Positions 45,083 to 50,141 of a DNA stretch of 64,000 bases are shown here, one piece after another (within the stretch, counting starts at the first letter, position 1; each line of letters begins with the position of its first letter). The notes below the pieces were generated by a model that saw only the letters and a list, made by a program, of their open reading frames with translations, made no database searches and was not told the origin of the DNA. Origin of the DNA: Candidatus Krumholzibacteriota bacterium (lineage in GTDB: Bacteria; Krumholzibacteriota; Krumholzibacteriia; JAJRXK01); assembly GCA_029262065.1 (NCBI GenBank), contig JAJDAC010000027.1, positions 1 through 64,000 on the forward strand, given 5' to 3'. Made by a program: the position numbers and the translations under genes.

Positions 45083-46732
45083 CTAGAAGCGGCTGGTTAC
45101 CCGGACTTCAACGCCTTTGAAATCGGGTACCACATAGCAGGTACCAGAAACGCAGTTGGTGCCACCCCGCCGACTTCCCGCAAACAGGGTGACATCGTGA
45201 CGCCAGCCGATGGATCGGCGCACGACCATGGCCAACCATTCACGTGTGTCAGTTTCCACCTCAGTCGTTTGGACGTCGTCAGCCTCGTCCGGATCGTTGG
45301 AACGTTCGTAGTCCAAACCCACGGTCAAGGCACCCGGCAGGGTGGCGATGAGTGCCGCCGCGAAGTTGTCGACGCGCTCGACCACCTGCACCAATTGCAT
45401 TCCCTGAACTCGGGTGAACAATAGATCCTCCACCTGATGCGACAAATCGAGTTCGACGCTCACGTCGGATGTGACCGTGGTCTCGGCCGACAATCCCACG
45501 GTGCGTTGAAAGTCCACCGGCACGATCTCGAATTCATCCAAGCCATCGGCGGCATACACGTTCACACGGAGGTCGCGGGCCGGATCGCTGGCGATACGGG
45601 CGTAGCGCAGCTCGTACTCGCGCCGCGTGCCGAACATACCCAGTGTTTCTTCGCGCCCGGATGCCTGCGCGTGGACGATCTCGGCGGTAACGTCTCCCCA
45701 GGGCGAGGGAATCGACTGACTCCAGGCCAACTGGTGGCCTTTCTCGTCGCGCGACTGAAGCACGTGGGTGGAGCGGTTCAGGAGCTTGGGATCCAACTCG
45801 GGCACCAGCGAAGGCGGATCGTTTACCCGCAGATCAAACTGGTGGTAGTCCTTGGTCTCGAAACTGAATCCGCCACCGGGGTAACTGACCTCGGCGCTGG
45901 AATACAAAGCGTGCGGCGTACCCGTGTTCGTATTGAACCCGTCTTGCCAGGGATTCCAGGCGTCCGCGGCGTACTCGCCATACAGCGAAACATCAACGTC
46001 GTGTTCGACCAGAAGCGGCACAAAACGGGACACCTGCAACGCGACATCCACCGCGCCGCGCTTGCCCTCGGTAAGCTCGGATGTTTCTTCCAGACGAAGG
46101 TAACTGCCGGCCACCCACACGCCGGGCCACGGGCGCGCAGCCAACCTGCCGCCGCTGGCTTCGCCAGAGCGTCGGTCCGGCGGCAGTCCGGGTGGCGCGT
46201 CGGGTAAGATGGTGGGCTCACCGTGAAACACGGTGGCCTCCAACCACTCCGACGAATGCTGCGCGGTAACGCCGTCGAGGTCGCGGTTCTCGGCGTATCC
46301 AATGGTGGGAATCAGGGTCTGACGCACGACTCCCGGAAGTTCAAATGCGCGGAACAGGAGCCCGCGGCCGAGAATCGCGTAGCCGTTGCCCAAGCGAACC
46401 GTGTTGGTCAGGTCCGACCACTCCAGGTATCGCTGCGTAATCTCGTCGTACTCGTAATCATCTCCGCCTGGCCCCACGGCCATTTCGGCGTTGGCTGAAT
46501 CGTGGAACACGTCGACGCGCAGTCCAGCCGCGAGACTCTTAATGCGGTAGTCCAGAATGAACTGGTTGAACAAACGGTTGCGGCCGTCTTCCTCGAGCGT
46601 ACTTCGCGGATTGCGACCGACCTCGAAGATCAGCAGGTTGCTCCCCTGCAGGCTACCGATGTCACGCGCACCAACTCGTTCGGGAACCAGAACGAGAACT
46701 GCGATGACCAGCGACCAAACTCGAACATTCAA
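45083..46732 (-). CDS. DUF6029-like outer membrane beta-barrel protein
   Basis: 549 residues. Signal peptide (MNVRVWSLVIAVLVLVPERVGA), followed by alternating strands typical of a barrel (NRLFNQFILDYRIKSLAAGLRVDVF, LEWSDLTNTVRLGNGYAILGRGLLFRAFELPGV) and a C-terminal phenylalanine (RVTSRF), the usual outer-membrane assembly signal. The N-terminal NRLFNQ...DYR pattern matches the DUF6029 family as I know it. It is coupled by a four-base overlap with the TlpA-like gene upstream. Confidence 0.75.
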   Translation of the reverse strand: MNVRVWSLVIAVLVLVPERVGARDIGSLQGSNLLIFEVGRNPRSTLEEDGRNRLFNQFILDYRIKSLAAGLRVDVFHDSANAEMAVGPGGDDYEYDEITQRYLEWSDLTNTVRLGNGYAILGRGLLFRAFELPGVVRQTLIPTIGYAENRDLDGVTAQHSSEWLEATVFHGEPTILPDAPPGLPPDRRSGEASGGRLAARPWPGVWVAGSYLRLEETSELTEGKRGAVDVALQVSRFVPLLVEHDVDVSLYGEYAADAWNPWQDGFNTNTGTPHALYSSAEVSYPGGGFSFETKDYHQFDLRVNDPPSLVPELDPKLLNRSTHVLQSRDEKGHQLAWSQSIPSPWGDVTAEIVHAQASGREETLGMFGTRREYELRYARIASDPARDLRVNVYAADGLDEFEIVPVDFQRTVGLSAETTVTSDVSVELDLSHQVEDLLFTRVQGMQLVQVVERVDNFAAALIATLPGALTVGLDYERSNDPDEADDVQTTEVETDTREWLAMVVRRSIGWRHDVTLFAGSRRGGTNCVSGTCYVVPDFKGVEVRVTSRF

Positions 46733-47253
46733 CGGGCGTCGTCTGCCTCGGGCTCGAGATTCAACAGTTCGCGAATGTATTTCTCGAGCTCACGCTCGTG
46801 CCCGTCGATGAACCCCACCTGCTGCATCCGGATGTTTCCCTCGGTGTCGATGAGAAAAGATGTGGGCAGCACCTGCACACGCCACTTCCGCCCGACCTGC
46901 TTGTCCGAGTCCAGAACGCACGGCAAGTCCAGCTTCTGCGACTTGAAGAACGCGCCAATCTTGGGCTGGCTACGCGGGTCGTCCTGGCTGACTGCGATTA
47001 CCTGGAAACCTTGTTCGGCATATTTCTCGTATAGCTTCTGGTAGTGCGGAAGCGCCTTCTTGCAGGGTGCGCACCAGGTGGCCCAGAAGTCGAGCAGCAC
47101 GGGACCCTTCTCCAAAGCCTTGGAGAGTTGGAGGTTTCCCCCACCGTAGAGTTTCAGTTTGAAGTCATTCGCGGGCCCCAGATCCTGCAGCTCGGCCTGG
47201 GCCGGCAGCACGAAGAAAAGGGCCAGGACTCCTATGATCAGGAATGTTCGCAA
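46729..47253 (-). CDS. TlpA/ResA-like periplasmic thioredoxin
   Basis: 174 residues. Signal peptide (RTFLIIGVLALFFVLPAQA) and thioredoxin fold with the active site FWATWCAPCKKALPHYQKL near residue 47, then FQVIAVSQDD and the cis-Pro loop QVLPTSFLIDTEGNI. It reduces or isomerises disulfides in the periplasm, for example in cytochrome c maturation. The TTG start at 47253 is set by AGGAG eight bases upstream; no ATG/GTG is available nearby. It is divergent from the selenoprotein pair. Confidence 0.92.
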   Translation of the reverse strand: MRTFLIIGVLALFFVLPAQAELQDLGPANDFKLKLYGGGNLQLSKALEKGPVLLDFWATWCAPCKKALPHYQKLYEKYAEQGFQVIAVSQDDPRSQPKIGAFFKSQKLDLPCVLDSDKQVGRKWRVQVLPTSFLIDTEGNIRMQQVGFIDGHERELEKYIRELLNLEPEADDAR

Positions 47254-47417
47254 GATGTTTACTCCTGTGGGTAGGCGAGGTTCAAACACGATACCGTAGG
47301 CTTTCCATTGGAGCCACAAGCGGGTGACCCCATCGCTACGCGGGCGGGACCCTGCCGTGACGGCCTCGTGGTGTTAGTATTGAACGCTGGTTCCCCAACG
47401 AAGTTTCTGGAGATGAT

Positions 47418-47987
47418 TTGCTAGTGAAGACGCCAAGATTCATCCGGCAGGGGCTCGCGGGCCTCTCGCTGATTTCCGTCCTTTTCGCGATCCCGGCCCA
47501 GGCCGCAATCTCGGTGGGAGACGTCGCGCCCGACTTCACCCTGAACGACATTTTCGGCAACAGCTACACCCTCAGCGAGTTGGAAGGCAGCGTTGTCGTC
47601 TTGTTCATCGTGGGGTATGGCTGAGTATTCTGCCGCCAGGCCGGTCCGGCCTCCGAAGCTCTCTATCAAGAATATCAGGGCCGCCGTGTGGTGTTCCTTG
47701 CCCTCGACGCCTGGAACGGCAGCACGTCCCAGGTCGGTAGCTTCATCAGCGCTACGGGAATTACCTACCCGGTGCTCTCGCAGGCCTCGTCCGTCGCGAG
47801 CACCTACGGGCTGAGCTACGACACCGTGTTCATCGTCGGCGGCGACGGGACCATCGGCATGGCCGACGCCACCGGATTCAACGCCGAGAGCGTGCGATCG
47901 ATCATCGGCTTCGAACTAACGCAGCTGCCCGTGCCCACGACGGCCGAAAGCTTCGGGTCGGTGAAGGCGCTGTTCAACACACCCTAG
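47418..47987 (+). CDS. Exported thioredoxin-like selenoprotein (UVFC)
   Basis: 189 residues if UGA at 47622-47624 is read as selenocysteine (Sec69). Signal peptide ends near AIPAQA; mature part is a redoxin fold: ISVGDVAPDFTLNDIFGNSYTLSELEGSVVVLFIVGYG, Sec, then VFCRQAGPASEALYQEY and VVFLALDAWNG, with TYPVLS and DTVFIVGGDGTIG. Sec69-Val-Phe-Cys72 replaces the CxxC of thioredoxins. The frame continues without any other stop to TAG-type end at 47985. The TTG start has GGAG five bases before. TGA is a normal stop in neighbouring genes, so recoding is local. A paralogue with UGA at the same place follows 71 bases downstream. Confidence 0.88.
47638..47652 (+). promoter_or_regulatory. Candidate bacterial SECIS hairpin (gene 1)
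   Basis: AGGCCG-GUC-CGGCCU forms a 6-bp stem with the conserved-type G at the loop; the sequence GGUC lies 19-22 bases after the UGA. Known bacterial SECIS elements have an apical loop with G in the first positions 16-37 bases after UGA. Confidence 0.75.
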
Positions 47988-48058
47988 GCCCTGTCACGAC
48001 CAGCAGCAGAGCGGCGTAGGAGTACTGAAGTTCGCACCACGTTCTGGAGCTGGAAAAC

Positions 48059-48622
48059 ATGAACCCATTTCGCCCCATCCAGCGCCGTGTGGCGGCCCTG
48101 ACGCTGGCCGCCACGCTACTGGCCGGGTCGGCCAGCGCCGCGATCCAACCCGGTGATCCCGCCCCCGACTTCACGCTTTCCGACATTTTCGGCAACAGCT
48201 ACACGCTGAGCGCGCTGCGAGGCAACGTCGTATTCCTGTTCATGATTGGGTATGGCTGACCCTTCTGTCAGCAGGCCGGTCCGGCCTCTCAGGCTCTCTA
48301 CATGGAATTCCAGGATCGCCGCGTGAAGTTCCTCGCCCTGGACGCGTGGGACGGCAACATCGGACAAGTAGGCAGCTTCATTACCGCCTCGAGCATCTCA
48401 TATCCCGTACTGATGCGCGCGTCGAACGTGGCCAACACCCTCTACGGATTGCGACACGACAGCGTGTTCGTGATCGGCGGCGACGGCATCGTGGGCTTCG
48501 CCGATGCTCGCGGTTTCAGCCCCATCAATATTCGAGCGGCCATCGAAATCGAGCTCGAGAAGTTGGCGGTGCCGGTGCGGGGGGAGAGTTTCGGGGCGGT
48601 CAAGGCGTTGTTCGTGGAGTAG
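48059..48622 (+). CDS. Exported thioredoxin-like selenoprotein (UPFC)
   Basis: 187 residues with UGA at 48257-48259 read as Sec67. Signal peptide (RRVAALTLAATLLAGSASA), mature part IQPGDPAPDFTLSDIFGNSYTLSALRGNVVFLFMIGYG, Sec, then PFCQQAGPASQALYMEF and VKFLALDAWDG, with VFVIGGDGIVG. It is a close paralogue of the gene upstream (same order of motifs; many identical residues). Sec67-Pro-Phe-Cys70 is the likely redox site. Start ATG 48059 is preceded by CTGGAG. The pair probably forms one transcript. Selenocysteine machinery (selA, selB, selC, selD) is not in the window. Confidence 0.88.
48273..48287 (+). promoter_or_regulatory. Candidate bacterial SECIS hairpin (gene 2)
   Basis: The same 15 bases AGGCCG-GUC-CGGCCU as in gene 1, with GGUC again at 19-22 bases after UGA, while flanking codons differ between the two genes. 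The conservation of a hairpin at a fixed distance is what a SECIS requires. Confidence 0.75.
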
Positions 48623-48676
48623 ATGGAACCGGGTGCGGTGGGGGCCGGGTGCGGGTTGCGTTGGTGCTGGCCGGTT

Positions 48677-48800
48677 GCGTGCACATACATGATCGTTCGC
48701 TAGTCCTCGCTTTGGCCCGGCCTGTTGGCATCGTGGGTACAACAGGCTAAGGCGGGCCGGGCCTCGCTGCGGAAACGCTCTCGACCATGTATGTGCACGC
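48677..48800. repeat. Inverted-unit repeat, left copy (MITE-like)
   Basis: 124-bp unit bounded by 15-bp terminal inverted repeats, GCGTGCACATACATG (48677-48691) and its complement (48786-48800). The subterminal 34 and 26 bases are shared with the right copy; the ~55-base centre differs but still has inverted ends (GGCCCGG...CCGGGCC). Confidence 0.8.
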
Positions 48801-48956
48801 GCCCTACTTCTCGGAAATGCGTTCGACCTGACGGCCACGCGACTGTCTGAACTGCCGATCTCGAACGGCCCGCGCGGCCGTTGCCGCGCCAGCCCTCGCA
48901 CGAGAACCCAGGAACGAGACTCCGCGTTCTTCGCCGGAACATCTGAGCGCTAGGTT

Positions 48957-49084
48957 GCGGGCTCATACATGGTCGAGAGCGTTTCCGCAGCCACCCCGGC
49001 CGCTGCAATACCCCCCCGCCAGGCCCCGAACCAAAACCCGGCCGGGGTAGGCGAGGACTAGCGAACGATCATGTATGTGCACGC
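48957..49084. repeat. Inverted-unit repeat, right copy (MITE-like)
   Basis: 128-bp copy in the opposite orientation. Its outer end (49051-49089) is the exact complement of 48672-48710, a 39-base match; a second 28-base match joins 48964-48991 and 48766-48793. The inner terminal repeat is slightly decayed (13 of 15). The centre has CCCCGGCC...GGCCGGGG, paired but different in sequence from the left copy. The 559-base gap between the second selenoprotein and the Cys-repeat gene contains only these units, a 156-base spacer and a terminator; no gene is supported. Confidence 0.8.
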
Positions 49085-49118
49085 AACCGACCCACCGCAA
49101 CCGGCCCAAAAAAGGGCA

Positions 49119-49181: not shown

Positions 49182-49982
49182 TTACTCGCCTTCAGTCTCC
49201 ACGGCCGGAGTGGCCAGGGCCACTTCGTACTGCTTCTGGTACTCGTCGATGACGTCAGCCTTTTCGCTGGTCACGAGGAACATCACGCCGTTGGCCATCT
49301 TGGTCATTTCGACGTTGCAGCTCTCGTTCTTGGCCATCGAGCCAGCCAGCGCACAACCGAAGTTCTCGGCGCCGCCCGCGGCCTTGGCCTGCAGGCCAGC
49401 GACGGTGGCATCGGTGGTACCGGTGTAGAACACAGCCAGCGTGCCCGAGGGCAGACGCACGGCTTCGACCTTCATGTCGGCCGGGTAGGCAGCCGACTTG
49501 GACGAGCAGCTACCGGCACCGGCGACGGCCGCGTCAGCGGTCTTCGAGGCACAGCTGGCCTTGGTACCGGCGACGGCGGCGTCAGCGGTCTTCGACGAGC
49601 AAGCAGCCTTCGTACCGGCGACGGCGGCGTCAGCGGTCTTCGACGAGCAAGCGGCCTTGGTACCGGCGACGGCGGCGTCAGCGGTCTTCGAGGAACAAGC
49701 AGCCTTGGTACCGGCGACGGCGGCGTCAGCGGTCTTCGACGAGCAAGCGGCCTTCGTACCGGCGACGGCGGCGTCAGCGGTCTTCGACGAGCAAGCAGCC
49801 TTGGTACCGGCGACGGCGGCGTCAGCGGTCTTCGAGGCACTGCTGGCCTGGGCGACCTTGGCGTCCGCGGTCTTGGCGGCAGCCGAGCTGGCGGTCTTGT
49901 CACAGGCGAGGGCCATCGAGGCCATGGAAGCCACGACCATCACGGACAAAGCCGCTACAGCAAGGATCTTCAGAGTACGCAT
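49182..49982 (-). CDS. Exported Cys-rich protein with 16-residue tandem repeats
   Basis: 266 residues. Signal peptide (MRTLKILAVAALSVMVVASMASMALA) followed by Ala-rich sequence and seven tandem copies of a 16-residue unit, SKTADAAVAGTKAACS, encoded by 48-bp repeats at about 49500-49840; most copies carry one cysteine. The C-terminal ~105 residues form a compact domain (MKVEAVRLPSGTLAVFYTG...NFGCALAGSMAKNESCNVEMTKMANGVMFLVTSEKADVIDEYQ). I recognise no characterised family. ATG 49982 follows GGAGAGG. The free cysteines suggest a metal- or thiol-buffering periplasmic role; this is an inference, supported only by the nearby TlpA and selenoprotein genes. Confidence 0.85.
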   Translation of the reverse strand: MRTLKILAVAALSVMVVASMASMALACDKTASSAAAKTADAKVAQASSASKTADAAVAGTKAACSSKTADAAVAGTKAACSSKTADAAVAGTKAACSSKTADAAVAGTKAACSSKTADAAVAGTKAACSSKTADAAVAGTKASCASKTADAAVAGAGSCSSKSAAYPADMKVEAVRLPSGTLAVFYTGTTDATVAGLQAKAAGGAENFGCALAGSMAKNESCNVEMTKMANGVMFLVTSEKADVIDEYQKQYEVALATPAVETEGE

Positions 49983-50141
49983 TGAGTTTGCCTCTCCAAG
50001 AGGGGGTTGGGTTGTTACGGATTCTTTGATGAACCGGGCGGGCCAAAGACCCACTGGGCTCACGAGCAATTCGTACGCCCTAGTATACGCATGGGTGCCC
50101 AAAATGGTGTCAATTCCCTGTCACATGGGAACGAAGAATCT

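Follow-up and report, generated by a model that had tools for sequence, protein, structure and literature searches.

How should two adjacent genes be read when each of them is interrupted by a UGA codon, and when the two interruptions fall at the same place of the same redoxin fold? The pair lies in a stretch of 64,000 nucleotides from a Candidatus Krumholzibacteriota genome (this whole stretch is what we call the window), and its features, with both genes read through the UGA, are as follows.

47424 to 47987, forward strand: Sec-redoxin gene 1, from a GTG start to a TAG stop; product of 187 aa with a signal-peptide-like N-terminus and a PF00578/PF08534 domain.
47622 to 47624, forward strand: UGA of gene 1, Sec67 counted from the GTG (Sec69 from a TTG), in GYG-U-VF-C.
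48059 to 48622, forward strand: Sec-redoxin gene 2, from an ATG start to a TAG stop; product of 187 aa with a signal-peptide-like N-terminus and a PF00578/PF08534 domain.
48257 to 48259, forward strand: UGA of gene 2, Sec67, in GYG-U-PF-C.

Our answer is that both genes very probably read the internal UGA as selenocysteine (Sec) and so give rise to two exported redox proteins, and we infer that Sec is inserted in vivo in both. More specifically, we hold with considerable confidence that the pair encodes exported, Sec-containing thiol:disulfide oxidoreductases. Each gene has a single in-frame UGA, at the position of the first Cys of a ResA-like CxxC active site; the initial annotation had placed the two codons at 47622 and 48257, at equivalent points of the fold, and we find both exactly there. 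It had also claimed that the two proteins match on both sides of the UGA, which holds as well: the read-through products align over 181 residues with 61% identity and without a break at the UGA. In a codon comparison of the two genes, 38 of 66 residues are identical before the UGA and 73 of 119 after it, and the third codon position is the most changed on both sides (differences at positions 1, 2 and 3 number 24, 16 and 29 before the UGA, and 35, 28 and 54 after it).

Upstream of both genes lies a common sequence, TTCTGGAG, which contains GGAG. This GGAG stands 11 nt from the GTG at 47424 and 9 nt from the ATG at 48059, but only 5 nt from the TTG at 47418; because of this spacing the GTG (187 aa, Sec67) seems the more likely start of gene 1, with the TTG (189 aa, Sec69) a possible one. 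The lengths first proposed, 189 and 187 residues, are thus kept for gene 2 and revised for gene 1, whose Sec is better numbered 67 than 69.

Sec machinery, on which the initial annotation had made its reading depend, is present in the source genome (5.77 Mb, 95.6% complete): we find selA (467.8 bits), selB (354.1 bits), selD (336.2 bits, with an in-frame UGA of its own) and a tRNA-Sec with anticodon TCA (71.6 bits). An Rfam search of the window gave no match. Of the 36 stop-to-stop frames of more than 350 codons in the 64-kb window, 22 end in TGA, the commonest stop among them, and therefore UGA has not been reassigned, a point on which the earlier reading also hung.

Relatives of the two redoxins occur in 36 of the 80 genomes of the phylum that we searched, and nearly all of the stronger matches carry one in-frame TGA. 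Neither the Sec/Cys column nor that of the Cys at +3 (U67 and C70 in the window) varies among the 31 sequences aligned, which bears out the claim that Sec takes the place of the first Cys of CxxC. As had been expected of homologues, relatives have UGA or Cys exactly at this position: one member (L031) has Cys in place of Sec (GYACAPC), and outside the phylum UGA is found in members from Calditrichaeota and Gemmatimonadota, and Cys at the UGA site in KSB1, Balneola and another member of Calditrichaeota. The family tree requires several changes between Sec and Cys, with both Sec and Cys forms of the family spread over several FCB phyla.

A SECIS-like hairpin, a feature absent from the initial annotation, lies downstream of each UGA.

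47638 to 47652, forward strand: SECIS-like apical hairpin of gene 1, AGGCC-GGUCC-GGCCU, loop at nt 22-26 from the U of UGA.
48273 to 48287, forward strand: SECIS-like apical hairpin of gene 2, AGGCC-GGUCC-GGCCU, loop at nt 22-26 from the U of UGA.

Both genes therefore have what characterises a bacterial SECIS, a hairpin just downstream of the UGA with a G-containing apical loop; in E. coli fdhF, a GGUCU loop stands at the same distance from the UGA (nt 22-26). With detectors designed after the sequences had been seen, and with relatives in the counts that are not independent, an RGU-loop detector gave a score of at least 14 at 27 of 36 UGA sites, compared with 5.8% of 7097 other codons in those genes, and a broader one gave a score of 14 at 35 of 39 UGA sites, compared with 17% of other codons. 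The RGU-loop score of gene 2 is reached by synonymous-codon shuffles with p=0.003, that of gene 1 with p=0.014; the shuffle test is weaker for the broader detector, with gene 1 not significant (p=0.157). Four relatives (L028, L044, L052, L144) score poorly with the RGU-loop detector, and single-sequence folding after each UGA gave no unusual stability (z near 0). Among lineages the letters of the stem vary widely while the loop is kept, as in GUGUCC-GGUCA-GGACGC, GCGGUU-GGUCC-AACCGU and UCGGCU-GGUCC-AGCCAC.

It is on this combined evidence that other readings of the UGA codons have to be judged. Translation table 11 reads UGA as a stop, and were these ordinary stops the genes would be pseudogenes or the result of sequencing errors, reduced to fragments of 66 residues, a reading with which the unremarkable single-sequence folding of the SECIS region agrees. 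That reading would have to accommodate a UGA at one identical position in both genes here and in dozens of relatives from several phyla, the conservation of the part downstream of the UGA, with its third-position changes, and a full set of Sec machinery in the genome; we regard it as extremely improbable, and the claim that neither sequencing error nor pseudogenes account for the pair is upheld, both being refuted by the pattern of conservation. A genome-wide reassignment of UGA, for instance to Trp, would make the residue something other than Sec, and is to our mind next to impossible: we found no point in its favour, and we reject it given that long frames in the window end in UGA more often than in any other stop, that relatives have Cys and not Trp at the site, and that a tRNA-Sec with a TCA anticodon is present.

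If Sec decoding belongs to the wider family, how old is the tandem? In the tree the two window copies are sisters with full support, and therefore the tandem is a local, lineage-specific duplication within that family; an ancient origin of the pair is rejected for the same reason. Elsewhere, two old paralogues stand in tandem in one genome (G053), another (G040) has a separate pair, and at locus L166 (G004:C174, 395-2150) three consecutive UxxC redoxin genes each have an in-frame UGA. A contig scan with gene 2 alone as query gave no match, and a scan with close relatives as queries was dominated by the FlgD/T9SS C-terminal domain of those relatives. At the loci that we group as family f6, the Sec-redoxin is often near a conserved HAMP-SpoIIE phosphatase, a metallo-beta-lactamase-fold hydrolase and an MFS transporter (loci with SpoIIE-type neighbours: L152, L153, L156-L158, L162, L163, L178, L182, L183, L185, L187); compared with the window, these three types of gene are not the neighbours found there.

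The neighbours in the window are instead a TlpA gene and a DUF6029 gene.

46729 to 47319, reverse strand: TlpA/ResA-like exported thioredoxin with CxxC (WATWCAPC), open frame as listed, divergent from the redoxin pair.
45083 to 46732, reverse strand: DUF6029 protein, predicted outer-membrane beta-barrel, with a 4-nt overlap with tlpA.
45137 to 45154, reverse strand: CVSGTC (C527/C532), the conserved Cys pair of DUF6029, within GSRRGGTNCVSGTCYVVPDFKG.

The true start of tlpA is probably a GTG near 47262. In 15 of the 18 genomes examined (11 genomes of the phylum with a strong DUF6029 match and 7 redoxin-holding genomes of other phyla) the redoxin adjoins TlpA-DUF6029, in at least three gene orders: redoxin-TlpA-DUF6029 (G008, G002, G070, G069, G061, G055 and the KSB1 genome G120), TlpA-DUF6029-redoxin (G013, G016, G102, G121 and the Balneola genome G112), and divergent or convergent arrangements (the window, G081, G105). 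All 11 of the strong-DUF6029 genomes carry a redoxin of the family, adjacent in 9 of them (it lies away from DUF6029 in G001 and G056), and the co-occurrence in these 11 has a hypergeometric P of 6e-5 when genomes are treated as independent. Outside the phylum the linkage is seen in 6 genomes of the family, from Calditrichaeota, Gemmatimonadota, KSB1 and Balneola; among the 7 from other phyla only G099 is without the neighbour, and in G105, at a contig end, DUF6029 is the only part of the TlpA-DUF6029 pair that is seen. The initial annotation had taken the tandem beside the TlpA/DUF6029 operon to be an undescribed arrangement, and so it is, but the redoxin family keeps TlpA-DUF6029 as its partner across phyla, and only the tandem is particular to this lineage.

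The DUF6029 protein of the window matches DUF6029 (PF19494) above the cut-off. Its predicted structure, a modest model from 8 sequences with a pLDDT of 74, is a many-stranded barrel with low-TM-score matches to barrels of the outer membrane, AlgE among them, and DUF6029 has been described as similar to the Wzi beta-barrel (PMC9603273); on the model, the protein looks like an outer-membrane barrel. A CxxGxC close to its C-terminus, in a stretch of the type RRGGxxCxSGxCY, is found at 16 of the 18 loci scanned, the window among them, and the other two have no match to the simple CxxGxC pattern. It is noted at 45137-45154 and at L149, L151, L154, L155, L160, L161, L164, L171, L174-L177, L186, L193, L197 and L200, in DUF6029 barrels linked to TlpA. 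In the literature we found no report of this CxxGxC or of a linkage of DUF6029 to redoxin or TlpA.

On the other side of the pair, just downstream, 48629 to 49104 holds nested inverted repeats with arms of 51 nt (90%) and 50 nt (84%), which look like a MITE or similar element. Beyond it, on the reverse strand at 49182 to 50102, is a protein that looks exported and consists of 6.6 copies of a 48-bp tandem repeat, with units that contain a Cys (CSSKTADAAVAGTKAA); a scan of this protein against Pfam and NCBIfam gave no match.

What kind of redoxin is this? An AlphaFold2 model (mean pLDDT 87.8) predicts a ResA-like thioredoxin fold in which the active-site helix (68-84) begins directly after Sec67, so that the active site stands where this helix starts. 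The model matches ResA (1su9) with a TM-score of 0.88 by target length; the closest solved relatives are ResA and CcmG-type proteins, and the top 30 structural matches are ResA and other TlpA/DsbE-type proteins, with some peroxiredoxins lower in the list. By sequence, the two proteins score 59.2 and 59.3 bits against AhpC-TSA (PF00578; gathering score 26), Redoxin (PF08534) is also above its cut-off, and an NCBIfam scan of the two gave no model at its cut-off. They are like the ResA/TlpA oxidoreductases (NF002854; PDB 1su9, 4nmu) in fold, export and position of the active site, but Sec replaces the first Cys, GYGU stands where the neighbouring TlpA has WATWC, and the ResA model scores 55.7 and 53.1 bits against a cut-off of 170, which leaves them outside that family. 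WAxxUGC_long (NF041054) is, like them, a ResA-like selenoprotein, but they score 24-27 bits against its cut-off of 300 and lack the motif WAxxUGC.

Nearer to them are selenoproteins that are already listed, namely the UxxC/UxxU Prx-like thiol:disulfide oxidoreductases of PF00578 and the UxxC Redoxin family of PF08534 (Table 1 of PMC13188914), which share with the window proteins a Pfam domain above gathering score and Sec as the first residue of UxxC; the kind is therefore known. Compared by description, the window family differs from these in its GYG-U with a DxWDG stretch, its tandem copies, its TlpA-DUF6029 context and its T9SS-type or WGxIKxLYR C-terminal ends. We found no published description of this branch, of Sec/Cys exchange inside a TlpA-DUF6029 module or of the C-terminal variants, and what is new here is the redoxin branch and its gene context.

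The C-terminal ends, which the initial annotation did not mention, bear on where the proteins act.

47946 to 47984, forward strand: C-terminal tail of the gene 1 product, ESFGSVKALFNTP, a variant of the phylum-wide WGxIKxLYR tail.
48584 to 48619, forward strand: C-terminal tail of the gene 2 product, ESFGAVKALFVE.

Both redoxins have N-termini that read as signal peptides, so the proposal that they are exported stands, while the periplasm to which it assigned them would be only one option for their exact compartment. Many relatives end in a FlgD/T9SS-type domain of the kind found on T9SS substrates (TIGR04183, FlgD_ig), which suggests that those relatives cross the outer membrane; in the phylum, the T9SS translocon protein SprA has a match in all 80 genomes and is over the cut-off in 72. 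A Por-type or FlgD-like sorting domain is absent from the window copies; they and other short relatives end instead in W/F-[SG]-x-[VIL]-K-x-[LI]-[YF]-R or something close to it. Because redoxins of the same family carry either this tail or the T9SS-type domain, the WGxIKxLYR tail may be an unrecognised C-terminal sorting signal. At the level of the phylum, a DNA pattern for W-[GS]-x-[VIL]-K-x-[LIM]-[YF]-R-stop has matches in 79 of 80 Krumholzibacteriota genomes (up to 35 per genome; reversed-pattern control 0 throughout), 28 of 30 sampled proteins with the tail have signal-peptide-like starts, and the tail is rare in other FCB genomes except for 68 matches in one (G087). In the proteins scanned against NCBIfam, the tail was matched by none of the models.

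Two other functions have to be weighed against an exported thiol:disulfide oxidoreductase working with TlpA. A peroxiredoxin active site needs Thr or Ser three residues before the catalytic residue. The window proteins have I/V-G-Y-G-U, with neither at that place, and the missing residue makes it less likely that they act as peroxiredoxin-like peroxidases in which Sec would be peroxidatic, Cys70 resolving, and the envelope protected from peroxides; the ResA and TlpA/DsbE-type proteins that fill the top 30 structural matches and the linkage to TlpA also speak against such a role. We judge it quite unlikely, even though the best Pfam match, AhpC-TSA, also contains peroxiredoxins, some of these appear among the lower structural matches, and reviews name the PF00578 UxxC selenoproteins Prx-like (PMC13188914). 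Alternatively, the redoxin could be a general periplasmic reductase of the CcmG/ResA kind, serving maturation of cytochrome c or copper sites, and its linkage to DUF6029 could reflect a shared envelope regulon only; the closest solved relatives fit this, as do the many family members in other gene contexts. It seems rather unlikely to us, given that the linkage to TlpA-DUF6029 is met with in several phyla and in three or more gene orders, and is therefore hard to explain by the inheritance of one old gene order, and that T9SS-type surface domains on many relatives would be odd for a cytochrome maturation factor.

In the reading that we prefer, the hairpin that closely follows the UGA would direct SelB and tRNA-Sec to insert Sec first in UxxC; once its signal peptide is cleaved off, the protein would, like those of the ResA/TlpA type, use Sec67 to attack a disulfide or a comparable oxidised sulfur and Cys70 to resolve the mixed selenenylsulfide that forms. 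Electrons would come from a DsbD-type protein, one of which is present, directly or through TlpA to the Sec-redoxin and then to envelope disulfides. An envelope thiol relay of this kind, from DsbD through TlpA/Sec-redoxin to a client, is the most likely role of the module, with the direction of electron flow and the client being what we infer. The CxxGxC of DUF6029 would be the best candidate client; that DUF6029 is a client of the redoxins is possible but doubtful, and on the model its Cys pair may face outside or be simply structural. We offer only tentatively the larger picture of a selenium-dependent outer-membrane relay, FCB-wide and with Sec and Cys versions, in which Sec-redoxin and TlpA would keep the DUF6029 CxxGxC in the right redox state as part of a redox-gated pore or surface redox switch.

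These findings add to the UxxC selenoproteins an exported branch that is common in one phylum and has a conserved gene partnership, and for DUF6029 they point to a role that can, for the first time, be tested. Because Sec and Cys replace each other within a single conserved module, nature offers an experiment on the purpose of Sec, and the Cys pair of DUF6029 gives a concrete target for asking why certain lineages bear the cost of Sec in the envelope when others have Cys in this module.
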